Source of the DNA: Aminobacterium colombiense DSM 12261
GTDB taxonomy: Bacteria; Synergistota; Synergistia; Synergistales; Aminobacteriaceae
Assembly: GCF_000025885.1 (NCBI RefSeq)
Contig: NC_014011.1
Coordinates: 1,736,001 to 1,800,000, forward strand
Direction: 5' to 3'
Length of the DNA: 64,000 bases
A model generated the notes under the pieces. The model did not search any database and was not told where the DNA came from. It saw only the letters and a program-made list of their open reading frames with translations. A program made the translations under genes and the position numbers. This document shows positions 9,046 to 64,000 of this stretch, one piece after another; position 1 is the first letter of the stretch; every line of letters starts with the position of its first letter.

Positions 9046-9936
9046 TTATTCGATGAATTTGGGGAGATACTGTTTTTCCAGGTCGCGGAACTGTTCGAAA
9101 CCTACAAGGTCTTTAAACTCTGAGAATGCCGCAACGAGGTCTGTTCTGCCCTCAGCGAGCTTGCCTCCCTGTATCTCATTGAGGTAATTGACCATGCCTT
9201 TCACAGCCGCAAAGAGAGGGCCAACAGGAATGCTTATTCTTCCCACGCCTAGTTCTTTAAGCTTTTCGATGGGAACGAGAGGTGTTTTCCCCCCAACAAC
9301 GGCATCCATGAGATTGATGCTCACTGGCGCTTTGATCTCTTTCACAGCCTGTTCTATCTGGTCTATTGACCGTGGAGCCTCTACGAAGATCAGGTCTGCT
9401 CCAGCCTCGGCATATGCGTTTCCTCGTTTTATAGCCTCTTCTATTCCGTGAACCGCAATGGCGTCGGTGCGGGCATTGATGACAAAATCAGGATCAATTT
9501 CATCCTTCACAGCCTTGCATGCCTTGATTTTCATGACCATTTCCTCTATAGGAATGATCTGCTTCCCCTCGAGATGGCCGCACCGTTTAGGGAACACCTG
9601 GTCTTCGATATTCATTCCAGCGGCGCCTGCCTTGATGAATTCCCTCGTGACATGCATGGCATTAATGCTATTTCCATATCCAGTATCAGCATCGGCCATG
9701 ACGGGAATTCCAACAGAGTCTATTATATTTTTTGTAAAGTGGACGACATCACTGAATCCGATGAAGGCCATATCCGGCAATCCCAAATAGGTAGCCGACA
9801 ACCCAAACCCGCTGACCTGAAGGGCTTCAAAACCCGCTCTTTCAATAAGCTTGGCAGAAATCGCATCGTGAGCTCCCGGGCACACTAGGGCCCGCCGTTC
9901 AAGGATCATATTTTTAAGCTTCGTTGTTTTTTTCAA
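9046..9936 (-). CDS. Isocitrate lyase/PEP mutase-superfamily lyase (methylisocitrate or 2,3-dimethylmalate lyase-like)
   Basis: A 296-residue TIM-barrel lyase. It has the metal-binding MADADTGYG and the catalytic-cysteine loop EDQVFPKRCGHLEGK (cysteine at about 119), which marks carbon-carbon lyases such as PrpB and dimethylmalate lyase rather than phosphonomutases. These enzymes split a 2-hydroxy di- or tricarboxylate into pyruvate plus a carboxylic acid. A TTG start at 9936 is preferred because GGAGGGG lies 6 bases upstream; an ATG at 9951 would place that site inside the gene. It overlaps the TRAP permease end and is the last gene of the operon, presumably the cleavage step. Confidence 0.8.
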   Translation of the reverse strand: MKKTTKLKNMILERRALVCPGAHDAISAKLIERAGFEALQVSGFGLSATYLGLPDMAFIGFSDVVHFTKNIIDSVGIPVMADADTGYGNSINAMHVTREFIKAGAAGMNIEDQVFPKRCGHLEGKQIIPIEEMVMKIKACKAVKDEIDPDFVINARTDAIAVHGIEEAIKRGNAYAEAGADLIFVEAPRSIDQIEQAVKEIKAPVSINLMDAVVGGKTPLVPIEKLKELGVGRISIPVGPLFAAVKGMVNYLNEIQGGKLAEGRTDLVAAFSEFKDLVGFEQFRDLEKQYLPKFIE

Positions 9937-11848
9937 CACGTACCCCTCCATTGAGACTAGAACGTTCTTGTTTTAAGATATATTTGTTCCATACAAAGGC
10001 TATAACCACGCCGACCATACCCGCAGCGGAAAGCTTAACATCAGGAAAAAGCAACAATATGCCACTCACAAAAAAGAGAACTCTGCTCAGTATAGCCATT
10101 ACACCTTTGCCGAAGCCAAAAAAACCGTACGCAATAGCAATAGCCCCGACAAAGCCTGTTAACCCATGGCTCAGAATAGCACCTGCAGAACCTCTCCCCA
10201 CCAGAGAGGGATTGAGAGCGAAGAAATAGGGCAGAATAAAGGCCACAGCCCCGAGCTTCACCGCATTCAGGCCAGTTTTAACCCAGTTCCCCTTCGAAAT
10301 GCTTGCCGCCGCCACTGCTGCCGTGCAGGTAGGAGGTGTAACCCCTCCAAGAATGGCCCAATAGATAAAGAAAAGATGGGCAGCAACCTGGTCAATTCCT
10401 ATTTTCATCAAAGGCGGCACAAGGATGGAAACAGAAAGAACGTACGTAGGGACAACAGGAAGAGAGGTTCCCAAAAGGAAGGGAACTATAGTGGCCACAA
10501 GAAGAGCGATAAAAATATTGGAACCGCCATATTTCAAGATCAGTCCGCTTATTTTAGGGGCGATCCCCGTGATCCCTATGAGGTTTACAAGCACACTCAC
10601 CGAGATAAGGATAGGGGCAATTCGCGCCACATCTGCCCCGGCTTCGCTTAAGGCGTCAAGAACCTTACGGGGAGTTTCTTTGATTTTTTTCTTCAGCAAA
10701 TCACTTAAAACCAACACGACAATGGAAGAAACACTGGCATAAAAACCCGCCTTCAGCAAAGGCTGCCCCGTTCCAATGAGATAAAGAAGAACAACAGTGG
10801 GAATAACAAGGCCCGCCATCCGTTCAAAGGTTAATATATCCTTCCATTTTGGAATTTCATCTTCTGGAACTGCAGAAAGCCCTCTTCGTTTTGTCTGAAA
10901 ATGGACGCCGCTAAACACACCTGTGTAAAACAATATACAAGGCAGCAAGGCATATCCGATGATGTTCATATAGGAAATATTTAAGAATTCCGCCATCATG
11001 AAAGCAGTGATACTCATGATGGGGGGCGTAATTCCGCCCCCGGTCGAGGCAATGGCTTCCACAGCTCCGGCAAATTCTGGTTTATACCCAAGACGTTTCA
11101 TGAGAGGTATGGTGTAGCTTCCCGTCACCATCACATTGGCTACAGAACTTCCAGAGATGCTGCCAAAAAGAGCGCTTGAAATAACAGCTGCTTTGGCAGG
11201 GCCTCCAACAAAACGGCCTGTCAGAGCCAGGGCCAGATCTATAAAGGTCTTGCCCCCGCCCGTAGCAGACAGAAGAGACCCAAATATGATGAACATGGCA
11301 ATAAAGGTTGCCGACATTCCTGTCACACTGCCAAACAATCCAAGGGGAGAATAATACACGGAATTCATAATAAAATTAAAAGATAAACCCCGAATTTTCC
11401 AGAGCCCCCCTAAATAGGGCGCCACATAGATATAGACAAAAAGCATTGCGACGAGTATGGGTATGGCCGCTCCAACGGTGCGACGAGCCGCCTCTAATAC
11501 AATGATCAGAAGAGCAGTTCCCAGAAGCAAATCCAGCGATGTGGCTCCTCCAGGCTTCATGTAAATATCAAGGGCCTTTACCACAACATTAAAACAGGCG
11601 AGAACAATGACAGCAATCAGAAAAACATCCCATATGAAAGAACGCTCATGTTCTTGACCTTCCCTTTGACGAAATGGGAAACAGAGCAAAGCTATAGATA
11701 CGCCCAGGGTCACATGAAGAGCTCGCACCTGAATGTCGAGCAAATTCTGAAAAAACATGGGTACAATCAGCTGGGTTAGAGAAAAGACGATACCGCTCCA
11801 GAATAAAAAGTGATTCATATGTTTATTTAAAAAATTTCGCACATTCAC
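9914..11848 (-). CDS. TRAP transporter fused permease (small plus large subunit)
   Basis: A 644-residue membrane protein in which the 4-helix DctQ-like part (about the first 150 residues) is fused to the 12-helix DctM-like part, as is usual for TAXI-type TRAP systems. Conserved large-subunit loops are present, such as GSISGSSVANVMVTGSYTIP and GGITPPIMSITAFMMAE. It exchanges sodium ions for an organic acid delivered by the TAXI binding protein encoded just upstream. The start is a GTG at 11848 with a GAGGGGGG sequence upstream. A stable stem-loop lies between it and the binding protein gene. Confidence 0.88.
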   Translation of the reverse strand: MNVRNFLNKHMNHFLFWSGIVFSLTQLIVPMFFQNLLDIQVRALHVTLGVSIALLCFPFRQREGQEHERSFIWDVFLIAVIVLACFNVVVKALDIYMKPGGATSLDLLLGTALLIIVLEAARRTVGAAIPILVAMLFVYIYVAPYLGGLWKIRGLSFNFIMNSVYYSPLGLFGSVTGMSATFIAMFIIFGSLLSATGGGKTFIDLALALTGRFVGGPAKAAVISSALFGSISGSSVANVMVTGSYTIPLMKRLGYKPEFAGAVEAIASTGGGITPPIMSITAFMMAEFLNISYMNIIGYALLPCILFYTGVFSGVHFQTKRRGLSAVPEDEIPKWKDILTFERMAGLVIPTVVLLYLIGTGQPLLKAGFYASVSSIVVLVLSDLLKKKIKETPRKVLDALSEAGADVARIAPILISVSVLVNLIGITGIAPKISGLILKYGGSNIFIALLVATIVPFLLGTSLPVVPTYVLSVSILVPPLMKIGIDQVAAHLFFIYWAILGGVTPPTCTAAVAAASISKGNWVKTGLNAVKLGAVAFILPYFFALNPSLVGRGSAGAILSHGLTGFVGAIAIAYGFFGFGKGVMAILSRVLFFVSGILLLFPDVKLSAAGMVGVVIAFVWNKYILKQERSSLNGGVRVEKNNEA

Positions 11849-11942: not shown

Positions 11943-12962
11943 CTATTTCTTGTATTCTGGTGGAAGGAAAAACTCTGGAACCTCTATGCCCTTTTCTTTG
12001 GCGTAACGAATAAGACCTGGGTGGGCAGGAACAAAGGCATCTTCTGTTGCGAATTTAAAGTAGTCTGCAACAGGATCCCATCCCTTGACGGCCCCGTAGG
12101 CCGCTGCAACTTCTTCAAACCCTTCCACATAGGCTTTAACGATGTTATAAGCCACTTCTTCTGACATTCTGGTGCTGGCTACCGCTCCAGCGATAGGGCA
12201 CTCTTCCCAAATTGGGCCCACATCTGGAAGCTGGGATATAGAGCCTTTTTGAGTTTCAAGGAAGCTCATGCTAGGTATCTTTTCCCGTATTTTCTCAATG
12301 TCATCCTTGGAATAGCCAATAACCGTAAGGGGCGTTGTAATATTCACTTCTATGAGGGACGCATCCATAGAAGTTAACCCGCTTGACTTCTGAAGACCAA
12401 CAATACGGCCTTCCTTAAGGGCATTGACGGCATCCCCATAGGCCATGGGCATAAGGTTGATATTGGCCCCTGTAATGTCGTTGTACTCCATAACGTAAGA
12501 AGCTGAAGCAGAGCCGGGAATGCCCGGGCAGAACCGTTTTCCAGCAAGATCTTTAAAGGTGGTAACTTTGGCATCTTCCCTAACATAGAGACGGTCGGCA
12601 AATACGTTTCTCAAAAATAGCCAGCGAACATCTTGGTAGGGTTTTTCCCCTTCAAAAGCCCCTGTTCCCTCATAGAGCTGAAGGGTAGACGGCAAGTCGA
12701 TGCACATAGCAAAGTCAAAAACACCATCGCGAACTTTCTTCAGGTTATCAATACCGGCTCCACTTTCAACAACAGTCACATTAAGCCCAACATTCGCTTT
12801 GTTGACCACGTTGGCGGCGGCTACGCACCATGCATAGACACCGGAAGAAGAGGACGTACTGCCCATATTCAAACTCGTTTGGCCATAGCCTGCTCCTGCA
12901 ACGACGAAAGAGAAGAGCACTAGCAGACACCCAAGAAGCAACATCTTTCTACTTTTCTGCAT
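11943..12962 (-). CDS. TAXI-family TRAP solute-binding protein
   Basis: A 339-residue periplasmic binding protein with a signal peptide (about 1-28, ending GAGYGQ). It has the TAXI-family opening NMGSTSSSSGVYAW and the KRFCPGIPGSASASYVMEY region typical of these receptors. It captures an organic acid for the fused permease downstream. The ATG at 12962 is chosen over the frame start at 13034 because AAGGGGG lies just upstream and the signal peptide then begins correctly. It stands between the aconitase-type enzyme and the permease, which ties uptake to the pathway. Confidence 0.85.
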   Translation of the reverse strand: MQKSRKMLLLGCLLVLFSFVVAGAGYGQTSLNMGSTSSSSGVYAWCVAAANVVNKANVGLNVTVVESGAGIDNLKKVRDGVFDFAMCIDLPSTLQLYEGTGAFEGEKPYQDVRWLFLRNVFADRLYVREDAKVTTFKDLAGKRFCPGIPGSASASYVMEYNDITGANINLMPMAYGDAVNALKEGRIVGLQKSSGLTSMDASLIEVNITTPLTVIGYSKDDIEKIREKIPSMSFLETQKGSISQLPDVGPIWEECPIAGAVASTRMSEEVAYNIVKAYVEGFEEVAAAYGAVKGWDPVADYFKFATEDAFVPAHPGLIRYAKEKGIEVPEFFLPPEYKK

Positions 12963-13001
12963 TGTGTTTCCCCCTTTTTTCCCTTTTAAAAAACATCTCT
13001 G

Positions 13002-13021
13002 TTCCGTGGAAAACCACGGAA
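13002..13021 (-). terminator. Hairpin between small dehydratase subunit and TAXI gene
   Basis: TTCCGTGG-AAAA-CCACGGAA is a perfect 8-bp stem. On the minus strand it is followed after 8 bases by TTTTTT, so it may be a partial terminator that lowers or separates expression of the transporter part of the operon. Confidence 0.45.
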
Positions 13022-13139
13022 AAGCCTCAAGCACCCAAGCTTTTTCAGCCTTCCTGCACTGTGCTTCGTCTTTTGCCTTCCTTATAAGCGTCCCTCCTTC
13101 TTCTTCATGGTAGCATAATCATCAATAGCGGCCGTGCCA

Positions 13140-13643
13140 TCAGCGACGGCCCGATATGTCAAAAGACTTATGCTGTTTTAAGTAAGGGGTTAACCCCCCC
13201 GCGGAAAGAATTCGGATCATTACATCAGGAAGCGGTTCCATAGGTATTATCTGGTTTGTAGTGAGATTGAAGATTCTTTGAGTAGAGAGATCAATGCGCA
13301 ATTGATCGAGGTCATGGATATCGTCGGTATTACATACTATAACAGGAACCCCAAGATTTATGGCGTTTCTAAAGAATATGCGTGCAAAGGATTTCGCTAA
13401 AACAGCCCCTACTCCGGCATATTTCAATGCTACAGGCGCCTGCTCTCTTGAGGAACCGCACCCGAAATTTCGACCGGCCACAACAAAATCCCCAGGCTGT
13501 ATCTTCTTGCTGAACCCGGGTGAAATGTCTTCGAAAAGGTGTTCCACCCAAACGGTATGATCAAGGGTTTTGGTGTATTTACCGGCGATGATGTAGTCGG
13601 TATTTATATTGTCGCCAAAGATATGGGCCCGTCCCTGAATCAT
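13140..13643 (-). CDS. Aconitase-type hydro-lyase, small (swivel) subunit
   Basis: A 167-residue swivelling-domain protein with the signature GRNFGCGSSREQAP and AKSFARIFFRNAINLGVPV, as in LeuD, homoaconitase small subunits and dimethylmaleate hydratase small subunits. It completes the active site of the iron-sulfur large subunit encoded immediately upstream, with which it overlaps by 4 bp. No leucine-pathway genes are adjacent, so a catabolic hydration or isomerisation is more likely than leucine synthesis. The substrate is not determinable from sequence. Confidence 0.82.
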   Translation of the reverse strand: MIQGRAHIFGDNINTDYIIAGKYTKTLDHTVWVEHLFEDISPGFSKKIQPGDFVVAGRNFGCGSSREQAPVALKYAGVGAVLAKSFARIFFRNAINLGVPVIVCNTDDIHDLDQLRIDLSTQRIFNLTTNQIIPMEPLPDVMIRILSAGGLTPYLKQHKSFDISGRR

Positions 13644-14917
13644 CGTACATCCCCCATTTCAAGAAACTCTCGGGGATCAGTAATGCATCCCTTTAAGGCC
13701 GAAGCAGCACAGGTTACAGGTGAAGCCAGATAGACAGAGGCTTTATTGTTCCCCATCCGCCCCTTGAAGTTCCTATTGGCCGTAGAAAGCACCGTTTCGC
13801 CATCTCCAGGCACTCCTAAATGGGTTCCGGGACAGGGACCGCAGCCTGGAGGGATAAGAGTAGCTCCCGATTTAAGGAATGTTTCCACAAGACCTTCTTT
13901 AACCGCCTCGAGAAAGATTTGCCGCGATGCCGGCCCTATGATCAGGCGACAGTTGGGGTTCACCCTTCCCTTTCGCAAAATAGCCGCAGCTGCCCGTAAA
14001 TCTTCAAGTCTTCCATTGGTGCATGTTCCGATAAATACCTGCTGAACCGCTCTCCCCGCCACATCCTCCACTGGATGAACGTTGTCAACGGCGTGGGGAC
14101 AGGCGACTTGCGGCCCAATGGCATTAACGTCTATTTCCATCACATTGTGGTAAACAGCGTCTGCATCGTCAAAAACAGGGGTGTAGCTTTTATGGGTTCT
14201 GCCAGTCAGATAGGCGGACGTTTTTTCGTCACACTCCATAATTCCGGCTTTCGCCCCGCACTCAATGGCCATATTGCACATGGTCATACGATCACAGATC
14301 TCCATATCGGCAATAGTTTTTCCTGTAAAGCTGATGGCCAGGTAATCGGCCCCATCAAATCCCAGTCTGCCAATGGTGTAGAGCATTACGTCTTTCGCGG
14401 TCACTCCTTTGCCCATGGCTCCACTGTAAACTATCTTCAGCGTCTCCGGCACCTTCAGCCAAAGCTGTCCTGTGAGCATCACTCCGCTCATGTCAGTGGA
14501 ACCAATTCCGAAAGAGAGAGCGTTCATGGCTCCATAGGTACAGGTGTGTGAATCGCATCCCAGCACGATCTCTGAGGGAACCACGAGTCCCTTTTCCACA
14601 AGAAGCTGGTGGCAAACCCCTTCCCCAACCTCGAAAAGACGCACATTCTGTTCCTTGGCGAAGTCCCGCATGAGGGAGTGAAGGCGGCTCGCCTGCTCAT
14701 TAGGGCAGGGAACGGCGTGATCAAGCACAAACACCAGACGGGAAGCATCCCAAATGTGAGGTTCCCCATATTCGCGGAAAGCCTGAATCGCCAGGGAAGC
14801 CGTGCTGTCGTGGGCCATGGCAAGATCTACATTGACCACAGCAATATCTCCGGCCCGCACATCCTGACCACAGTGAGATGATATTATTTTTTCAACAATG
14901 GTCTTCCCCCGCCCCAT
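13640..14917 (-). CDS. Aconitase-type hydro-lyase, large (4Fe-4S) subunit
   Basis: A 425-residue LeuC/homoaconitase/dimethylmaleate-hydratase family protein. The three cluster cysteines are visible at C299 (IGTCTNGR), C359 and C362 (CGPCPG), and the DSHTCTYGA motif is at about 122-130. The enzyme would hydrate or isomerise an unsaturated or 2-/3-hydroxy acid. Placement in an operon with a PrpB/dimethylmalate-lyase-like enzyme, PrpD-like proteins and a TRAP importer suggests it prepares the 2-hydroxy acid that the lyase cleaves. It follows the third PrpD paralogue by 2 bases. Confidence 0.85.
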   Translation of the reverse strand: MGRGKTIVEKIISSHCGQDVRAGDIAVVNVDLAMAHDSTASLAIQAFREYGEPHIWDASRLVFVLDHAVPCPNEQASRLHSLMRDFAKEQNVRLFEVGEGVCHQLLVEKGLVVPSEIVLGCDSHTCTYGAMNALSFGIGSTDMSGVMLTGQLWLKVPETLKIVYSGAMGKGVTAKDVMLYTIGRLGFDGADYLAISFTGKTIADMEICDRMTMCNMAIECGAKAGIMECDEKTSAYLTGRTHKSYTPVFDDADAVYHNVMEIDVNAIGPQVACPHAVDNVHPVEDVAGRAVQQVFIGTCTNGRLEDLRAAAAILRKGRVNPNCRLIIGPASRQIFLEAVKEGLVETFLKSGATLIPPGCGPCPGTHLGVPGDGETVLSTANRNFKGRMGNNKASVYLASPVTCAASALKGCITDPREFLEMGDVR

Positions 14918-14919
14918 AC

Positions 14920-16305
14920 TTACGCCTCTTTTCTAAGAAGATTTGTCAGAACTTTCACGTTATCAAGATCTTCAAGATGCATCACAGCGTCAACAATCTT
15001 CTTCCGCCGGTCTGCGCAATCAAAGACCTTCCCCGCCAGAGAATCGAATTTCCAAAGAAGCTCTTCTTCTGTAAAGGGATTCAGCGGGTGTCCCTTGGGA
15101 TATTCTGTTCTCAGATTGAAGACACGGCCGTCGTTGAGTTCGATCTGGACCTTCACTGTATAACGAAGGTTTCTTGGCAGATTCTCAATTTCTTCGTCGG
15201 GATATACCTCGACTTTTTTGGCGTACTCGAGAATCCTCTGATCGCGGATCTTTTCTTCGTTAAACTGATCCACAAAGGCGTTTCCTTCAAGCATGGTCAC
15301 GGCGCATACGTAGGGGTGGCTCAGCTGGGCCGCTACAACACTGGTAATGGCGTCAGCGTTCACCGAATATTTATGTGTAATGGAAGTGGTTCCAACCCTG
15401 ATCTTTTTCACGTCGTCGGGATTGATCTCAGGGTGCTCCTGTTTGAATCTCCGCAGCGTATCGATGGTGGAATGTTTGCTTCGGCAAGTGGAGTAGAACT
15501 TCAAGCCTATGCCAAGGAGTTCCCACCGTTCTCCCAGTTCTCCAGCTGTGCGCTCTACGTTATAGATATCGTCTGTAAAGCAGTTGTAGAACCCGCCGAA
15601 TTTATTCTCAAAAACATCCTCGATGCCGGTAAAGCCTTCTTTAGCCAGCAGACATCCAATAATGGCCCCTTCAGAAGACTTGGAGGGAACTATTCGCTTG
15701 GCCATGGAAGCGAACTGTACAGCCTGCAATCCGCTCGACCAGTTTCCGGTAATGCCCATGGCGTGGATCATCTGATCTTTGCTCAGCCCCAGCATCTTCC
15801 CCACCCCTGCGGCAGAACCGAAGGGGCAGCACGTACCCGTATTGTTAAAACCCTGATGGGCCAGCTCCATACCGATGGGAGCCGCTACCCGGCAGGCCAC
15901 TTCAAAGGCCAGAACCGCGGCGGTGAGAAAATCTTTTCCCGAAACAGTGCCAAGGGTTTCGGCAAAGGCTGTAATGCAGCCAAGAACACCTGTGGAGACG
16001 TGGATGATACCGTCGGTGTGGGTATCGTCAAGCTCAAAGGAATTGATGGCAGAACCGTTGAGCATCATGGCCGATGTAACCGATGTCTTAACATTCGTAC
16101 CCCAAACAGAGGCTTCCTGCCTGTCAGACATTTTCAAAAGTACGTCTTTATAGATCTTCATCCATGGAGTGGTGGAACCAAAGAGACCGCATCCATAGGA
16201 ATCCAGCAGAATGTTCTTCAAATGGGTTGTGACCTCAACGGGGATATCTTCATATTTGAGCTGTGCGATAAATCGAGAAAGACCTTCATTAATTCTGTCT
16301 GCCAT
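14920..16305 (-). CDS. MmgE/PrpD family protein, paralogue 3
   Basis: A 461-residue member of the MmgE/PrpD family, which includes 2-methylcitrate dehydratase, cis-aconitate decarboxylase and iminodisuccinate epimerase. It has the SFELDDTHTDGIIHV active-site region, but the HP motif that follows ELDD in the other two paralogues of this operon (residues TYHPGA and TCHPAV) is replaced by IHVSTG, so its chemistry may differ. The start is supported by AAGGAGGAG 7 bases upstream. It sits between paralogue 2 and the aconitase-type pair. Confidence 0.82.
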   Translation of the reverse strand: MADRINEGLSRFIAQLKYEDIPVEVTTHLKNILLDSYGCGLFGSTTPWMKIYKDVLLKMSDRQEASVWGTNVKTSVTSAMMLNGSAINSFELDDTHTDGIIHVSTGVLGCITAFAETLGTVSGKDFLTAAVLAFEVACRVAAPIGMELAHQGFNNTGTCCPFGSAAGVGKMLGLSKDQMIHAMGITGNWSSGLQAVQFASMAKRIVPSKSSEGAIIGCLLAKEGFTGIEDVFENKFGGFYNCFTDDIYNVERTAGELGERWELLGIGLKFYSTCRSKHSTIDTLRRFKQEHPEINPDDVKKIRVGTTSITHKYSVNADAITSVVAAQLSHPYVCAVTMLEGNAFVDQFNEEKIRDQRILEYAKKVEVYPDEEIENLPRNLRYTVKVQIELNDGRVFNLRTEYPKGHPLNPFTEEELLWKFDSLAGKVFDCADRRKKIVDAVMHLEDLDNVKVLTNLLRKEA

Positions 16306-16369: not shown

Positions 16370-17740
16370 TTACCATAGAAGCATGTCGGTCAGTTCTTGA
16401 ATCGGATTCGTTAAAGTGCCTTCATCCATTATCCAGTCCATAACTTTTTTCTGACGCCCAGCCGTCAGAACAGTCTGGGTCACATCCCTGAACTTATCCA
16501 TCAGATCTTCATCAGACATGGGGTTAAGGGGATCTCCCTTGGCATAATCCACCCTTGACGCAAAAATCTGCCCGTCGGTATCGGTTATTTCTACAATGGT
16601 GGTTCGTATTTCAGGATAGGTCTTCTGAATCTCGGGATCTGCCTCTATTTCTATAAGAGAAGCTATCTTTTTAACCCTCTCGTCTTTAATACTCTCTTCC
16701 GTGTATTCCTGGAGACCGGCTCTTCCCCGCACGATCATGGAACCCATGCCGTACTGAAGGCTCAGTCTGGCGTGAAGCACTGTCTGGTAGTCGGGAATAT
16801 CTGAACCCTGTTTGGCATTTTTGTGGGTCAGCACCCGAATGGATTGAATGTCATCCATCGTCATGGGGTGCCCCCTTAAAATATTTTCCACAGCCTCAAC
16901 AGCGTAATGAACATACCGGCATGAACAGTAAGGTTTGAAGTATATTTTCTGGAATTCCCACTTCTCGCCAAGGTCTTTTTCAAGAATGGAAGGATTGAAG
17001 GTATCTGAAAAACAGTGGGCGAAGCCCAGACGGCCTTCAAGAATTTCTTCTGGCCCCGTAAAGCCATTTTGAGCGAGAAGGGCGGCAAACATGCCGTTTC
17101 GCGCCGCATTGCCCGGGTGAAGGTGTTTCACAAAAGAGCCGTCGATTTCGTACTGGTTAATACCTGAGGCCAGACTGCCAACAATGCCAATGGCCGAAAC
17201 AAGCTCGTCCGCATTCAGCCCCAGCAGGCTGGCACTCACCACTGTGGTGCCAAAGGTTCCCACCGTTCCCGTGGGGTGAAAGCCCTTAAGATAGTGGGAG
17301 GGGTTAACCGAGGTGCCAATTCGAAGAGAAACTTCATACCCCAACGCAATGGCAAGAAGTACATCCTCCACAGTGGCTCCCCGCTCTTCCGCAAGAGCCA
17401 ATGCAGCTGGAATCATAGAAGCCCCGGGATGGTAGGTCGCATACTTTGACCCGTCATCGAGCTCCAGGGCATGGGCCGCTACTCCATTGGCAAGAGCGGC
17501 ATGAGCGCTATCAGTCTTAAGGAGTGTTCCGATCACCGATGCCTTGCCGGCAGGGGCGCATTTTTTGACAAAACCCTGAATGGCCTGAGCCGAATCTGCC
17601 ATGGCTGAGCCAGCAATGATCACACCCACAGTATCGAGAAGACACCGTCGTGCCTGATGAACAATAGCTTCAGGCAGGCTTGAAAAGGATGTATCAGCGG
17701 CAAATTCCGCCAGCTTCCTCGAAAAGGTTTTGTCACTCAT
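16370..17740 (-). CDS. MmgE/PrpD family protein, paralogue 2
   Basis: A 456-residue MmgE/PrpD protein with HALELDDGSKYATYHPGASMI and the PAALALAEE stretch after it, the family's active-site region, plus the FHPTGTVGTFG motif. The start at 17740 is chosen because GGAGG lies 8 bases upstream and because it overlaps the DUF4387 stop by 8 bp; a frame start at 17773 lacks a binding site. It likely dehydrates, epimerises or decarboxylates a carboxylate; which of these cannot be told. Confidence 0.83.
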   Translation of the reverse strand: MSDKTFSRKLAEFAADTSFSSLPEAIVHQARRCLLDTVGVIIAGSAMADSAQAIQGFVKKCAPAGKASVIGTLLKTDSAHAALANGVAAHALELDDGSKYATYHPGASMIPAALALAEERGATVEDVLLAIALGYEVSLRIGTSVNPSHYLKGFHPTGTVGTFGTTVVSASLLGLNADELVSAIGIVGSLASGINQYEIDGSFVKHLHPGNAARNGMFAALLAQNGFTGPEEILEGRLGFAHCFSDTFNPSILEKDLGEKWEFQKIYFKPYCSCRYVHYAVEAVENILRGHPMTMDDIQSIRVLTHKNAKQGSDIPDYQTVLHARLSLQYGMGSMIVRGRAGLQEYTEESIKDERVKKIASLIEIEADPEIQKTYPEIRTTIVEITDTDGQIFASRVDYAKGDPLNPMSDEDLMDKFRDVTQTVLTAGRQKKVMDWIMDEGTLTNPIQELTDMLLW

Positions 17741-18059
17741 CCCAGGGAACCTCCAGAGAGAAGAGTGGGGCATACTGCTGGCACCCGTACACGTCTGTTT
17801 CTGAAGGGCCTCCGCTGGCTATCGACCGCCGAATATTGGCCTTAATACCCATCCCGGGATCGAAGAACATAAAATCAAGCACTTTTTCTGTTGGCACATC
17901 GTAGGCCCGGGCAATGGCTTCTTGAGTAACGACACCGCTTTGTTTCACTTTTTCATAGATTGAACGGTCACTGAAGATAATCTCGAGGGTAATCATAAAG
18001 CTCCCCGCATTCTTGCTGCGAACCGTTCTGGCTAAATCACATATATTTTTTGTTTTCAT
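17733..18059 (-). CDS. DUF4387 domain protein
   Basis: A 108-residue protein beginning KNICDLARTVRSKNAGSF, with DVPTEKVLDFMFFDPGMGIK and a C-terminal DVYGCQQYAPL, characteristic of DUF4387. As I recall, this family is commonly encoded beside AtuA/DUF1446-type proteins, and one is present two genes upstream, so the two may form a complex. It overlaps the upstream PrpD paralogue by 4 bp (ATGA) and the downstream one by 8 bp. No catalytic motif can be named. Confidence 0.78.
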   Translation of the reverse strand: MKTKNICDLARTVRSKNAGSFMITLEIIFSDRSIYEKVKQSGVVTQEAIARAYDVPTEKVLDFMFFDPGMGIKANIRRSIASGGPSETDVYGCQQYAPLFSLEVPWDE

Positions 18060-19456
18060 GAGTGGAACCTCCCGAAATGGTCAACTATTTCCCCATAGGC
18101 GACTGAGTCTATGGGTCTTTCCACACACAGATCCCACAAGCCCGCTAAAAATTCTGCCGGGTAATACACATTCACCATGCCCTGAAGTTTCTCTAAAAGA
18201 TCCTGATCGTTCACTGGATTTTCAGGCTCTCCCTTGGCTACGGGAATATGCTTTTCAAAAGAACGTCCGTCCTTGAGCTCAATTCTCATCCAGGCTCCCC
18301 GCTCCTCTGGATAGATGCGGTTCATGGCTTCATCTTCTTCGAGGTTCATTTTCAGGGCGGTTTGGCGAAGTTTCTCGTTCTTCAGAGTTTTTTCGTCATA
18401 ATCCCGCAGAGTCACATGGCCCCGCTCAAGGGCAATAGACACGGAGAATGGAAGACTAAACATGGCTTCTTCAAAGGTAGCGGGGGTAAAGATCCGTCCC
18501 ACTTCCGCAATCCCCAGGGCATAGGTCTTTACGTGGATGGATTCAATATCGTCAAGGGTGAGGCCAAGAGCCTGTTTCCCCTCTTTGGCCAGGTCGATGG
18601 CAGCGTGGCAGTGGCGGCAGGTAGGATAAAGCTTGGTATAGGTGTACATAATCTCCCACCGATCTCCCAGCTCTCCCATGAGGGCTTCTTCAGAAAATTC
18701 GTTGCGGCACATGGCCTTTAACCAACCGTGCTCTCCCTCGAAAAGAGACCTGGGCCCTTTCGCTCCCCGATCAACGAGGTCTGCTGCCAATACTCCCGCC
18801 ATGGCGGCCTTGCCCGGCTGAAGTGGCTTGATTCCCGGATGGTCGTGAAGCATCTCCTGAAGTCCGGCGCTTTGCAGCCCTCCAAGTGCAACAGCGTAGG
18901 CAAAAGATTCAGGGCCGAAATTCTTAAGGCTGGCGCAGGCAGCGGCAGCGCCAAGGGATCCGCATGTACCTGTAGAATGAAATCCCCACTTCAGATGGGA
19001 AGGGTTAATGGCTCTCGCCGCCCGAAGCATTACATCGTACCCCACCACAATGGCCCGAAGAAGGCTGGTAAAGTCAGATCCTTCCCGTTCTGCCATCACA
19101 AGGGCAGCCGGAATAATAGCCACTGCAGGGTGGCATGTTCCCCACCGATGGCCGTCATCAAGCTCTATGGAATGCCCCAGAGCTCCCAGGGCCAACGCTC
19201 CATTAATAGCAGGAACCTTGCTTCCATGACAAAGGATGGTGGATTCCGGAGCCCCGCCAAGGGAAATGAGGTACTCTGCGCAGAGGGCAGGAAACTCTCC
19301 TGTTTTGTGTCCGGCCGCTACTTCCGAAAGAAAATCCACTAGAACGCGGCGAGCTTTATCAAGAACTGCTTCCGGTATGGGGGAAGCCCCCCTATCGCCA
19401 TAGAATCGGCTTAATTTTGAAAGATAGGTGGCATTTACATCAAGTGTTTGAGTCAT
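18056..19456 (-). CDS. MmgE/PrpD family protein, paralogue 1
   Basis: A 466-residue MmgE/PrpD protein with HSIELDDGHRWGTCHPAVAI followed by IPAALVMAE, and the WGFHSTGTCGSLGAAAACAS motif. It starts 2 bases after the AtuA-like stop, with the GGTAGGGGG binding site inside the upstream gene, so the genes are translationally linked. It carries both conserved pieces of the active-site region (ELDD and CHP). It is related to but clearly distinct from paralogues 2 and 3. Confidence 0.83.
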   Translation of the reverse strand: MTQTLDVNATYLSKLSRFYGDRGASPIPEAVLDKARRVLVDFLSEVAAGHKTGEFPALCAEYLISLGGAPESTILCHGSKVPAINGALALGALGHSIELDDGHRWGTCHPAVAIIPAALVMAEREGSDFTSLLRAIVVGYDVMLRAARAINPSHLKWGFHSTGTCGSLGAAAACASLKNFGPESFAYAVALGGLQSAGLQEMLHDHPGIKPLQPGKAAMAGVLAADLVDRGAKGPRSLFEGEHGWLKAMCRNEFSEEALMGELGDRWEIMYTYTKLYPTCRHCHAAIDLAKEGKQALGLTLDDIESIHVKTYALGIAEVGRIFTPATFEEAMFSLPFSVSIALERGHVTLRDYDEKTLKNEKLRQTALKMNLEEDEAMNRIYPEERGAWMRIELKDGRSFEKHIPVAKGEPENPVNDQDLLEKLQGMVNVYYPAEFLAGLWDLCVERPIDSVAYGEIVDHFGRFHS

Positions 19457-19458
19457 TA

Positions 19459-20844
19459 CTAACCCCCTACCGTCTCAAAATGATATTTAAAGATTTTGCT
19501 GTCCAGTGGATCTTTGAGGGTCAGCAGATGATCGATGGTCCACCGATAACACTTGTTCTGAGGATAAAGGGGTTCGTCGGTAAGAAGGGCCACAGAGCCG
19601 CCCGATGAGTTCATCTGGCCAGGGTAGCTCATATAGAAGAAACGGAACTTGGCGCACTTTGCCACAGTGGTGGCAAGATCCAGATCTTGAGAAACCACTT
19701 CTATAAAAACTCCCAGCTCATGGGCCTGGGTTTTTATAACGGGCTCATACTCTCTCATAACGGCGTTTCGGCCATATACGTGGAAATAGAGATCATAGTC
19801 TTTGTCCCGGGAAGGCCCAATAATGTGAGACACTTTCTTTCTCGTGTCTTCAAGAATCATGTCGATATTATCGATGGCCCTGGGGTCGCGGATTCCAACA
19901 AAGTGATAGACACGGTGCCCCGCTTCGCCGGCCCCTTCCAGTTTCACCTTATAGCTTCCGTCGGGAGAAGAAACAAACTTGCTTCCCGATACTTTGGCGA
20001 TACGGTCGGTAACAGACTCATAAACGCTCTCATGCATATCGAGAATTCCGCCGGGCAACCCCTGAACGAAGGGATTCGTTCGCTCGTACATAGAGTGGGC
20101 CGCAAGGCTGTGTGGCGTTGCCTGCTGTTTCGGATGCATGGGCTCGATTGTAAAATGGTCTGGATGGACAGTGGCAATAATCGACTCTTTCACCATCTGG
20201 GGCCAACAGACAAGGGAGGCGCATTCCGCCGCTTTCCCCATATGAAGGCTGATCCCTCTGTCAAAACCCTTAAAGATGGGATAGGCTGCCAAAACGGCAT
20301 CGTCACAGGCCCGGCCGGCCATAATCACATCCGCTCCCTGCTCAAGGGCATAAACAAACTGCTCAATACCCATACTGGCAGTTACATTCGTCGTCTGATC
20401 AATTACTTCTTTCGTAAGGGGAAAATCTGCTTCAAGAGGTTCAGTGTCTCCGTTTTCTACACGTTTTAACAGTTCATTTTTGTCCACTTGAGAATAGATA
20501 AGGGCCATTTTGAAGGGGGCGAGGCGATGTTCTTTTGCTATATCGCGAATAAGGTCGGCGTACAAATCCACAGTTCTGTCTGTTCCAGTGGTACTGCATG
20601 ATCCAACAATCATGGGAACATTCTTTTTTCTTGACTCCACAAGCATTACTTCAAGGTCGTGTCTTTCCCATTCAATTGGGTTGTGGGGCTTGTTGGCTCC
20701 TAAAAAGGTGGGGCCGGCATCGGCTGTTCCCGCATCGGCTGCGAAACAGTCGATATGATGCTTCACACCTTCGTAAAAGGATTCTTCTTCGATAATGTTA
20801 TCGCCCAAGTTGCCGGTAGACACGAGAAGCGAACATTTTTCCAC
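19459..20844 (-). CDS. AtuA-like (DUF1446) protein, first gene of the operon
   Basis: A 461-residue protein of the acyclic-terpene-utilisation AtuA/DUF1446 type. It contains FAADAGTADAGPTFLG, GSCSTTGTDRTVDLYAD and ADVIMAGRACDDAVLAAYP, the glycine-rich and ligand-binding segments of the family. Its reaction is not established; it may act with the DUF4387 protein. The start is a GTG at 20844 with GGAGGG 6 bases upstream. It is the promoter-proximal gene of an operon of about 11.8 kb, and a palindrome matching NrpR operators (20865-20880) covers the region just upstream of its ribosome binding site. Confidence 0.78.
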   Translation of the reverse strand: MEKCSLLVSTGNLGDNIIEEESFYEGVKHHIDCFAADAGTADAGPTFLGANKPHNPIEWERHDLEVMLVESRKKNVPMIVGSCSTTGTDRTVDLYADLIRDIAKEHRLAPFKMALIYSQVDKNELLKRVENGDTEPLEADFPLTKEVIDQTTNVTASMGIEQFVYALEQGADVIMAGRACDDAVLAAYPIFKGFDRGISLHMGKAAECASLVCWPQMVKESIIATVHPDHFTIEPMHPKQQATPHSLAAHSMYERTNPFVQGLPGGILDMHESVYESVTDRIAKVSGSKFVSSPDGSYKVKLEGAGEAGHRVYHFVGIRDPRAIDNIDMILEDTRKKVSHIIGPSRDKDYDLYFHVYGRNAVMREYEPVIKTQAHELGVFIEVVSQDLDLATTVAKCAKFRFFYMSYPGQMNSSGGSVALLTDEPLYPQNKCYRWTIDHLLTLKDPLDSKIFKYHFETVGG

Positions 20845-20864
20845 AACATTCCCTCCTCTATTTT

Positions 20865-20880
20865 CGGAAATTGACTTCCG
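20865..20880. promoter_or_regulatory. Putative NrpR operator 1
   Basis: CGGAAATTGACTTCCG is a perfect palindrome of the form GGAA-N6-TTCC, the published operator pattern of NrpR repressors. It lies about 20 bp upstream of the AtuA-like start, so binding would block transcription initiation or early elongation. It is the outer member of a symmetrical pair with the site at 21015-21030. Confidence 0.65.
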
Positions 20881-20912
20881 TTTGGCTATAGGTTAATATA
20901 CTCAGACTCTTT

Positions 20913-20918
20913 TGTCAA
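20913..20918 (-). promoter_or_regulatory. Candidate -35 element of the catabolic operon
   Basis: The minus strand reads TTGACA here, an exact -35 hexamer. No good -10 is found at the ideal spacing (TAACCT at 17 bases, TATATT at 12), so the promoter is only tentative or needs an activator. Confidence 0.3.
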
Positions 20919-21014
20919 CTTCAAATAGTGCGGGTTTAATAGCTATCAAAAGGCTAAAATAGGGGTGTTTGGCGCAAACACGGCGCAAAAAAGAAAATTT
21001 TTAATTTATTTCAT

Positions 21015-21030
21015 CGGATAGCAACTTCCG
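21015..21030. promoter_or_regulatory. Putative NrpR operator 2
   Basis: CGGATAGCAACTTCCG matches the operator pattern with one mismatch in the left half (GGAT for GGAA). It lies about 20 bp upstream of the regulator ATG at 21051. Its flank, TTCCGAAAATAGAG (21026-21039), is the exact reverse complement of CTCTATTTTCGGAA (20856-20869) at operator 1. The two centres are 150 bp apart. Confidence 0.6.
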
Positions 21031-21050
21031 AAAATAGAGAGGGCTTTAAA

Positions 21051-22094
21051 ATGCAAAATTTTACGTATAATAGTAGCAAAACCAGCAAAGGAGTTTCACT
21101 CATGTTTGCCAATGAAAAATATGCGGCCACAGTTATAGAGATTCTACGCATCCTCTACTTCTCTGACGGCATTCAGTCATCAAGCCATATACGCAGCCAG
21201 CTCGGAGAGCGAGGATTCGACCTCGACTCCAGAACGGTACGGTATCATCTTTCAAACATGGAATCTGAGAACCTTGTGAAGAGAAAGGGAAACAGAGGGG
21301 CTTACCTTACCGAAAAAGGAATCAGCGAAGCAAAAATGCTCTTCGTTTTCGACCGCGTTGGCACTCCATCCTTCGAAACTGAAAAACTTTCTTCTTTTTA
21401 CTCTTTCAATGGGGAAAAAAAGAAGGGCTTCATCGTCGCCAACTGCCTCCTTCTAGAAAAGAACAAGCTATCAATCGCCTTGCAAGAACTTAAAAAGGCT
21501 GCTTTTACAAACGTATGGGTATCGTCTCTCCTCGGCATTTCAAAAGAACCGGAAAAGCTGTGGAAGTGCGACCTTCCTGACAAGTATGTAGGTCTTGTCT
21601 GCGTATCATCCAGGAATTACGATGTGGCTCTTCAGAAGAAAGGAATCTATGTAGAAACCTCGGCAACAGGTCTTTACAGCCTCAAAAACTTCACTCCCCG
21701 GGGATTTACAGAGATCATATCTCATACAGGAACAACCCTCAGCCCTGGAGAAATCCTCATTCGAGGGCGATACACATCTGTCTGCCGTCTGGCAGAAACC
21801 GGGGAGGGGCTTGTTACCGCTGCCATCAAGACCTTTCCATCATTCTTATACAAAGAACTTCAAGAAGCCCTGGCGCACCTTGATCCATCTATCTTTTCAG
21901 GTCTCATTTTCCATGGCGGGCTCATTCCCCCCTCATATCGCATCAGCTCAAAAGACCGCAACAAAGGCTACATGGTCATATACGGCGGCGCCAACCTCTT
22001 CTCTCCCCTTATTGAAAAAGGAATCGCCACCAACCTTTCCATCGCCAGCAGCCTTTACGACGTAGAACAAATGACCGACATCAACAACCTGTAG
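21051..22094 (+). CDS. NrpR-type (DUF128) transcriptional regulator
   Basis: A 347-residue protein with an N-terminal winged helix (about 24-95; SRTVRYHLSNMESENLVKR) and one C-terminal NrpR/DUF128 sensory domain (GFIVANCLLLEK to the end). Archaeal NrpR represses nitrogen-assimilation genes and responds to 2-oxoglutarate, with two sensory domains; here there is one. It is divergent from the catabolic operon, and palindromes matching NrpR operators lie before both genes, so it probably controls both. The ATG at 21051 has GAGGG 7 bases upstream; an internal ATG at 21102 also has GGAG and is a reasonable alternative. Confidence 0.8.
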   Translation: MQNFTYNSSKTSKGVSLMFANEKYAATVIEILRILYFSDGIQSSSHIRSQLGERGFDLDSRTVRYHLSNMESENLVKRKGNRGAYLTEKGISEAKMLFVFDRVGTPSFETEKLSSFYSFNGEKKKGFIVANCLLLEKNKLSIALQELKKAAFTNVWVSSLLGISKEPEKLWKCDLPDKYVGLVCVSSRNYDVALQKKGIYVETSATGLYSLKNFTPRGFTEIISHTGTTLSPGEILIRGRYTSVCRLAETGEGLVTAAIKTFPSFLYKELQEALAHLDPSIFSGLIFHGGLIPPSYRISSKDRNKGYMVIYGGANLFSPLIEKGIATNLSIASSLYDVEQMTDINNL

Positions 22095-22095
22095 T

Positions 22096-22247
22096 GGTGC
22101 CAGGTCTTGAAAATGTGCAATTGTATTAAAAGTATGCACGAATGCCCCACAAGAGAGTCTTGAAACCTCTTTTGAGGGCATTCGCTATTTTTCTGCCTGC
22201 CAACATGTGAAATTAAAAACTAATGCACATTTTCAAGACCTGGCACC
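22096..22247. repeat. REPIN-like inverted-repeat element B
   Basis: Perfect 24-bp arms (22096-22119 and 22224-22247; core GGTGCCAGGTCTTGAAAATG) enclose a hairpin. The left arm starts 1 base after the regulator stop. The right arm lies inside the coding region of the convergent gene and encodes its last residues. Bases just inside both arms match element C at 63760-63921, while the central hairpins differ. Confidence 0.85.
22140..22193. terminator. Hairpin between convergent genes
   Basis: GAATGCCC (22140-22147) pairs with GGGCATTC at the 3' side, with an inner AAGAG/CTCTT stem, followed by GCTATTTTT on the plus strand. It is a plausible terminator for the NrpR-type gene and lies inside element B. 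Confidence 0.55.
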
Positions 22248-23503
22248 ACTTTTTTGTAAAACCGGTACACAACTTTCTGGTTCAGCTGGGCAGGCCCCAT
22301 GCGATCTTCTTCCCATTTTTTCAGGTCATCCCAGCTCCACAGATCAGTATGGGGGCTCACTAGCGACTCAAGCTCCAAATACCACGGCTCTTCTACCATC
22401 TTCACAACCAGGCCGGGTGACTGTGTATCTCCCCAGCAAGATAAACGGTGCTCATAAAAATTCCGAACCTGGCCGTTCTGCCAATAGGTTCGTATTCGTT
22501 CAGCCTCAACTTCACCAACAAGAACGTAGTCTGTGGCCTGCAAAGCGCCATCTTCGCCAGGCTTCATCAGAACGCCTTTAAAAAGAGGCTCTTGTGTTGG
22601 GTCGACCCTCCGAACACGGCCTATCGTTCCAGACAGAAGGGGAATCTGAACAGCGTGACCCCGCGGGGCACGGGTGTAATCGAAAGCCAGCTCTCCCATT
22701 TTTTTCGTCTTATCTCCCTGGGCAAAGCGCACCACAATCCCCGTGTAAGCCGGCTGATCCTCTAATTCCTCATACAAGAAGCCTATAGACCAGTTCTTAA
22801 AGGTGCGGCCCACAAAAAGGTTAAATCCCTGGGCCGTTTCCCCCATCACTTCTTCTCGTATGGGTAAGTCACCGAACCTTGCTTCATAATGCCACAAACC
22901 AGAATCGTTGCGATAGAAAATATACCGTTCTGCCCAATTCGAAGAGCGGTCTACACCAAAACCCCAGTCTATCCACGCAGCATGAACGCCCAAGCCGCAC
23001 TTGTGGGCATAATCAGCAGTAAGAATCAGGCCGGAATAGCCTGTTTCATCTCCGCCCTTGAGGTCACCGATTCCCGGCACCTGATCAAAGGTGGCGATAG
23101 CATCCGGATAGGGGAAACGTAAATAGCGGCTTCTTCCAAGCTTGGCACTCAAACTCAGTGTTCCGTTTGCATCTACATAAAAACCATATTTCTCAATAAA
23201 AGCTTCGTCAAAACGGGGGGCCCACTCCCCTAAACCGTTCATTTCTTTATTAGAGCGGATAATACTATGCCATCGCAGGCCAGCCCCTAAATCCACATCT
23301 GTCAAAAGCTGCAAGTTTCTGAAATCCAAATGGTCTGTCCAGAAATGAGCCCCTGCACTGAGTCCCCAAAAGCCATTGCCTTTCCCAATGCTTGGAAAGC
23401 ACCACCCCTTCTCGTATATCTCTTTTTGTCTGCACAAAGCCTTTTCCCCAAAAGGAAAAATCATAAGCAGAAGAATGAGGATAAAGAAAAAGCATTTCTT
23501 CAT
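22220..23503 (-). CDS. Exported beta-rich protein of unknown function, exopolysaccharide-linked
   Basis: A 427-residue protein with a signal peptide (about 1-25, MKKCFFFILILLLMIFPFGE). The body is rich in aromatic residues and alternating patterns (GLRWHSII, YSGLILTADYAH, SIGFLYEELE) typical of outer-membrane beta-barrels or periplasmic beta-proteins. I do not recognise the family. It is the third gene after the SLBB and Wzz genes, 16 bases from the latter, suggesting a role in glycan export or attachment. Its last eight residues, VPGLENVH, are encoded by a REPIN arm, so the original C-terminus has been replaced or extended. Confidence 0.65.
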   Translation of the reverse strand: MKKCFFFILILLLMIFPFGEKALCRQKEIYEKGWCFPSIGKGNGFWGLSAGAHFWTDHLDFRNLQLLTDVDLGAGLRWHSIIRSNKEMNGLGEWAPRFDEAFIEKYGFYVDANGTLSLSAKLGRSRYLRFPYPDAIATFDQVPGIGDLKGGDETGYSGLILTADYAHKCGLGVHAAWIDWGFGVDRSSNWAERYIFYRNDSGLWHYEARFGDLPIREEVMGETAQGFNLFVGRTFKNWSIGFLYEELEDQPAYTGIVVRFAQGDKTKKMGELAFDYTRAPRGHAVQIPLLSGTIGRVRRVDPTQEPLFKGVLMKPGEDGALQATDYVLVGEVEAERIRTYWQNGQVRNFYEHRLSCWGDTQSPGLVVKMVEEPWYLELESLVSPHTDLWSWDDLKKWEEDRMGPAQLNQKVVYRFYKKVVPGLENVH

Positions 23504-63646: not shown

Positions 63647-63759
63647 TATTTTTCCTCCTATCACCATCGTGAGCATCTTACCAAAACTCTATATGATAAG
63701 TATTTGTAGCGTGAATTTTTTAAACATACAATGGATAATAATACCAAAGAGAAGGGAAT

Positions 63760-63921
63760 GGTGCCAGGTCTTGAAAATGTGCAATTGTGTCAGAAGCATG
63801 CTGTAATGGGAATGTTGAGATAAAAGACAGGGGCCGCTCAGATCAACTGAGCAGCCCCTGCTATTACCTGTGTCTTACTCGTGAAACTATACGCTAATGC
63901 ACATTTTCAAGACCTGGCACC
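63760..63921. repeat. REPIN-like inverted-repeat element C
   Basis: Perfect 24-bp arms (63760-63783 and 63898-63921) identical to those of element B enclose a hairpin. The right arm lies inside the 3' end of the minus-strand gene at the window edge and encodes its last residues; the left arm lies about 110 bp upstream of the amidohydrolase start. Confidence 0.85.
63828..63860 (-). terminator. Terminator of the gene entering at the right edge
   Basis: A bipartite stem CAGGGGC...GCCCCTG with an inner GCTCAG/CTGAGC stem is followed by TGTCTTTTAT on the minus strand, 34 bases after the stop at 63894. It lies inside element C. Confidence 0.75.
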
Positions 63922-64000
63922 ACTACGTTATACATTACGTATTCGTTGTACCCCGTAATGAGGCGCATGTAACCAGAAAACTTTTGGTCAATAGAACTGT
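63894..64000 (-). CDS. Unidentified protein, C-terminal end (partial)
   Basis: The minus-strand frame is open from the window edge to a TAG at 63894-63896 and gives 34 residues, including DQKFSGYMRLITGYNEYVMY and ending VVVPGLENVH. I do not recognise the family. The last eight residues are encoded by the right arm of element C and are identical to the C-terminus of the exported protein at 22220, although the rest is unrelated; the repeat evidently supplied both ends. Confidence 0.6.
   Translation of the reverse strand, partial: SSIDQKFSGYMRLITGYNEYVMYNVVVPGLENVH

Follow-up and report, generated by a model that had tools for sequence, protein, structure and literature searches.

The window, that is, the whole 64-kb stretch of DNA that was analysed, contains a gene for an NrpR-family regulator (nrpR) and ten genes that run divergently from it, with two palindromes in the gap between them. 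The features, ordered by coordinate, are:

9046..9951, minus strand: PEP mutase/isocitrate lyase superfamily protein (methylisocitrate / dimethylmalate lyase-like)
9914..11848, minus strand: TRAP transporter, DctM-containing membrane protein
11943..13034, minus strand: TAXI/NMT1-like solute-binding protein
13140..13643, minus strand: LeuD-type small subunit, named from its position after LeuC and from resemblance
13640..14917, minus strand: LeuC-type aconitase-family large subunit (nearest solved structure: isopropylmalate/citramalate isomerase)
14920..16305, minus strand: MmgE/PrpD family protein 3
16370..17773, minus strand: MmgE/PrpD family protein 2
17733..18059, minus strand: DUF4387 protein, homologue of citramalate lyase subunit B (CmlB)
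18056..19456, minus strand: MmgE/PrpD family protein 1
19459..20844, minus strand: AtuA-family protein, first operon gene, homologue of citramalate lyase subunit A (CmlA, PDB 9erq/9evf)
20856..21039: inverted repeat with both operators inside its 25-nt arms (20856-20880 and 21015-21039; 84% complementary)
20865..20880: predicted operator 1, CGGAAATTGACTTCCG, an exact GGAA-N6-TTCC, 20 bp from the GTG (20844) of the AtuA/CmlA-like gene
20912-20917, plus strand: TTGTCA, overlapping the operon -35; probable nrpR -35 in several relatives
20913..20918, minus strand: TTGACA, operon -35 hexamer, conserved in relatives
21015..21030: predicted operator 2, CGGATAGCAACTTCCG, within the nrpR 5' region
21102..22094, plus strand: NrpR-family regulator with winged helix HTH_12 and one NRD1_2 sensor domain

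The regulator joins an N-terminal HTH_12 winged helix (PF08461, E 3.3e-16) to one copy of the NRD sensor domain at the C-terminus (PF01995, E 5.8e-45, profile positions 9-237 of 238), which bears out the preliminary description of an NrpR-family protein with a single sensor domain. The 18 aligned NrpR homologues each have one NRD-length region, and the window's genome encodes one NRD protein. When an 18-sequence profile of the regulator was compared with the PDB, the sole chain matched was MJ0159 (PDB 3nek, E 3e-11); phmmer with the single regulator sequence gave a chance match only. The predicted structure, built from three input sequences, had a mean pLDDT of 43.4, with residues 26-98 (helices) alone confident. 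The open frame of nrpR starts at ATG 21051, and ATG 21102 has AAAGGAG ahead of it. The true start is probably 21102, since this ATG and AAGGAG are common to both sister species and the homologues align from that point; operator 2 would then lie 71 bp away.

A short repeat, AAGACCTGGCACCA, which looks REP-like, has nine exact copies in the window (22095-22248, 63759-63922, and also 1903, 2833, 7464, 8987 and 9028). Genome-wide there are 23 copies, 14 forward and 9 reverse, and 19 of these lie within ~1.706-1.824 Mb. Several copies form inverted pairs ~150 bp apart, and one pair lies directly 3' of nrpR.

The divergent operon had been called a carbon-acid operon, and its genes are indeed a carboxylate set rather than nitrogen genes. 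Judged at the level of families, lyases of the CmlAB and PrpB kinds occur here together with dehydratase/isomerases of the PrpD and LeuCD types, which suggests that the operon breaks down a branched di- or tricarboxylate. Homologues of both subunits of the solved citramalate lyase CmlAB are present, as the AtuA-family and DUF4387 proteins, but the window's CmlA-like protein resembles that enzyme less closely (E 2.9e-81) than does a paralogue from a related genome (E 3.7e-118), and may therefore act on another substrate. A second CmlA/CmlB-like pair was seen at L130 2493-3836 (G035), and there are similar paralogues; this pair is closer to the solved enzyme than is the one linked to NrpR. At L046 (G080, 12121-12431), the operon has no LeuC/LeuD pair and TAXI comes directly after PrpD3. 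A literature search on CmlAB and DUF4387 yielded nothing useful beyond one remark on DUF1446, whose gene in enterobacteria is described as adjoining methylaspartate ammonia-lyase (PMC4682846).

Both 16-bp palindromes reported in the preliminary description are present at their positions, 150 bp apart centre to centre as it had said. Its other details held in part. Operator 1 matches GGAA-N6-TTCC exactly, whereas the core of operator 2 is GGAT-N6-TTCC, with one mismatch. The distance of about 20 bp to a start codon is right for the AtuA-like gene and probably wrong for nrpR, given its likely start. The outer 14 bases of the inverted-repeat arms are exact reverse complements of each other in the window, as claimed, but only ~9 of these bases (TTTTCGGAA/TTCCGAAAA) are common to the sister species, on both sides; in G084, the nrpR-side flank reads CTCCGAAAA. 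The CTCT end of the flank overlaps the ribosome-binding site of the AtuA gene, and the nrpR side does not keep it.

Within one genome, the core pattern is not scarce. GGAA-N6-TTCC was observed three times in the window against 2.09 expected, and CGGAA-N6-TTCCG with at most one mismatch occurs at 60 places in the whole genome (1,980,592 bases, single contig) against 111 for the reversed control. Two such sites inside one 206-bp gap have a chance of ~2e-5, calculated from the genome density. The longer pattern TTTTCGGAANTTGNYWTCCG, itself derived from operators 1 and 2, is matched exactly nowhere else in the genome, and the five other places carry three mismatches. Since the bare GGAA-N6-TTCC is not rarer than chance, the weight of evidence is comparative.

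We therefore turn to the 185 Synergistota genomes. An AtuA orthologue (~75-100% identity) was found in 23 of them and an NRD domain above the cut-off in 24; sub-cut-off NrpR fragments in G102, G130, G170 and G183 were scored absent. All 23 genomes with the orthologue carry nrpR on the same contig. The NrpR domain is over the cut-off in 22 of these, and in G155 the gene is cut by the contig end and was read in L078. The association has a Fisher p of 2e-27 by genome and 1.5e-10 by genus, phylogeny being otherwise uncorrected and several compared genomes near-identical (genera g23 and g4). Divergence of nrpR from the AtuA gene was seen in 17/23, counting G155 (L078) and G016 (L096), in which only the beginning of nrpR is visible and the remainder is cut off. 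The six genomes of genus g23 have nrpR at the end of a LeuC-LeuD-TAXI-TRAP-PrpB run. A scan of genome contigs for relatives returned two loci, both from Synergistaceae, and the comparison is thus one within Synergistota.

Weak NRD fragments were also observed in genus g2 (L028, L029 and L056; G102, G130 and G170), two of the three with internal stop codons. They are possibly decayed copies of nrpR, a gene otherwise absent in this genus.

By the preliminary description's own criterion, absence of the sites from relatives that have this gene pair would have spoken against it, and it withstood that check. At least one site with at least eight of the ten core letters is present in 23/23 AtuA-upstream regions, and at least two in 19. 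These regions hold 45 sites of at least eight letters against a shuffle mean of 6.2 and maximum of 15 (an alternative count of 47 contains two masked-base artefacts), and 11 matches to all ten letters against 0.03 in shuffles. Compared with the rest of the same loci, site density is 7-, 27- and 113-fold at 8, 9 and 10 letters. The AtuA-side region of L048 reads N. In the window's genus, the promoter and both palindromes stand out as islands of identity within a diverged gap.

The consensus is CGGAAATnnATTTCCG, taken from 42 sites (of 43, the one on the nrpR side of L039 was dropped for its short flank). GG and CC never vary among them, and AT..AT is preferred at the inner positions, with the inner T in 36/42 and the inner A in 30/42 sites. 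Because the sites were picked by their core letters, conservation of these is partly circular; the inner bases, which were not part of site picking, and the positions are the only independent evidence. On the nrpR side, no convincing site was found in the 1.25-kb gap of G028, and L107 has a 7-letter site only. L037 (G020) shows three tandem palindromes of 7-9 letters on the nrpR side, besides the operon-side one.

The position of operator 1 is fixed relative to the promoter. Its first base lies 38-46 bp downstream of that of a TTGAC(A/T) hexamer in 21/22 regions (38 bp in the window), and no such hexamer was found at operator 1 in L104. In L050, this distance is kept though the start codon is 365 bp off. 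By hexamer distance, operator 1 thus has the placement typical of a repressor site, at the promoter or initial transcribed region, in 21/22. Assuming standard promoter spacing, it would lie at about +2 to +10; no clear -10 box for the operon promoter was found in the window or its genus. Several relatives have TTGTCA-N17-TATAAA on the plus strand. Judged from such letters, the two promoters would point away from each other and share part of their -35 boxes in these relatives, and operator 2 would be ~90 bp inside the nrpR transcript.

Genus g23 shows what happens when nrpR lies elsewhere. In 6/6 genomes, the second site is found ~40 bp downstream of the TTGACA of the LeuC promoter, so that the second site follows a structural-gene promoter once nrpR moves. 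No similar site was found ahead of nrpR in the four regions inspected, and autoregulation is thus not a constant feature. Autoregulation of nrpR in the divergent arrangement is plausible but less certain than control of the operon.

Two genomes, G006 and G157, have NrpR and no AtuA orthologue. The G006 locus (L108, 6971-12177) is an operon of C26 peptidase, CmlA-like, CmlB-like and DcuC-type dicarboxylate carrier genes with nrpR last; its CmlA-like protein has 40% identity. The first gene has a perfect CGGAAATCAATTTCCG 16 bp upstream of it and contains CGGAAGTTGTTTTCCG. With this operon included, nearly all NrpR loci have a CmlAB-like lyase and a carboxylate importer in common. In G157 (L105, 5959-10615), NrpR is divergent from TAXI-TRAP; an AtuA orthologue is lacking, and between NrpR and TAXI-TRAP no site reaches nine letters. 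One CGGAAATTGACTTCCT is found there downstream of the TRAP gene (10827-10842).

Taken together, we read both palindromes as operators through which the adjacent single-sensor-domain NrpR would repress the carboxylate-catabolic operon until released by a carboxylate, and we give this reading a probability of roughly 0.87. Gene neighbourhood alone is not proof of regulation, and the missing site ahead of nrpR in g23 could mean that the palindromes serve another regulator, global or pathway-specific, with NrpR as a mere neighbour. This is very unlikely, as sites and NrpR occur together in 23/23 genomes and again in the rearranged G006 operon, and the motif is that of the NrpR operator. Moreover, none of six more distant AtuA paralogues unlinked to nrpR has a site of at least eight letters within 600 bp upstream. 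In its exact form, the refined motif is also nearly restricted to the locus: among the matches listed, 9/11 exact copies in 22 genomes (a scan that left out G035, G041 and G046) are at the nrpR/operon locus, and the window's genome has one exact place, the present one, and one place with a single mismatch. The exact matches on C5 of G006 and C321 of G142 were considered as regulon members and not counted; the former adjoins a putative ssb and the latter is inside the region of a large ORF. Chance palindromes, which the commonness of the bare pattern in the genome might suggest, are hardly credible given conservation in 23/23 regions and identity islands in an otherwise diverged gap.

Read along the mRNA-sense strand, each palindrome is bound to fold as a hairpin; in the window, AAAATAGAG comes after both of them, ahead of a ribosome-binding site. 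Hairpins at the 5' ends of the operon and nrpR mRNAs could accordingly control translation or stability. We consider such a role in RNA highly improbable, because the sites keep a constant distance to the -35 hexamer and not to the ribosome-binding site (as in L050), their sequence fits the DNA operator established for the family of the linked regulator, and no Rfam family reached threshold here, two sub-threshold matches being treated as chance. A different matter is looping, with an NrpR tetramer holding the two sites together; the preliminary description considered their spacing compatible with looping. Most genomes have two sites per region, and several relatives space them 150-170 bp apart. 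However, the spacings in 20 regions, between 115 and 398 bp, show no helical phasing (Rayleigh p 0.06-0.46), which lends looping no support, and in g23 each site is on its own promoter. Looping is therefore unlikely.

Under the preferred reading of two NrpR operators, a ligand-free NrpR dimer would sit on operator 1, at or just after the transcription start, and block RNA polymerase on the ten-gene operon. A carboxylate substrate or intermediate of the pathway, citramalate-like or 2-oxoglutarate-like, would bind the single NRD and release NrpR. In the divergent arrangement, operator 2 in the nrpR 5' region would probably also lower nrpR expression, acting as a roadblock. The arrangement is most simply read as start-site occlusion that a carboxylate would relieve.

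The operator of archaeal NrpR is reported as GGAAN6TTCC (PMC2723118, PMC4335013), and the present sites fit this published type, as the preliminary description had proposed. Archaeal NrpR is reported to be released by 2-oxoglutarate (PMC4902934, PMC11957540), and NrpR to occur in certain Bacteria too (PMC2723118); no bacterial NrpR operator or regulon appeared in the NrpR literature surveyed, represented mostly by titles and the first lines of abstracts. The odds are about even, in our judgement, that the Synergistota branch of NrpR has kept the archaeal operator code while its job and probably its ligand changed, giving a one-domain repressor of CmlAB-like operons that senses a pathway carboxylate. 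If so, 2-oxoglutarate nitrogen sensing would be one use of a broader carboxylate-sensing family. The operator is defined here by comparison over one phylum, with its operon and with a second, different operon (G006). This definition makes the question of the NrpR effector directly testable and provides a lead to the function of the CmlAB-like, PrpD-like and TRAP genes that travel with NrpR.

One-component repressors of the TetR, GntR and IclR kinds control catabolic operons locally from divergent promoters. The locus resembles them in its divergent layout and in the palindrome over the likely transcription start, and differs in that the regulator's family is known for archaeal nitrogen control. 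Archaeal-type NrpR, as in Methanococcus maripaludis, has two NRD domains. With the NrpR proteins of M. maripaludis and Methanocaldococcus jannaschii, the window's regulator shares HTH_12 and NRD, the GGAAN6TTCC operator and, for MJ0159, the profile match. It has one NRD, however, and would act at a sigma-70-type, bacterial promoter. Archaeal NrpR controls nif, glnA and amt genes, whereas the NrpR of the window stands beside a carboxylate-catabolic operon with the extended motif. By its domains and its predicted operator, the protein thus belongs to the NrpR family, from whose archaeal members it differs in one sensor domain and in genetic setting.
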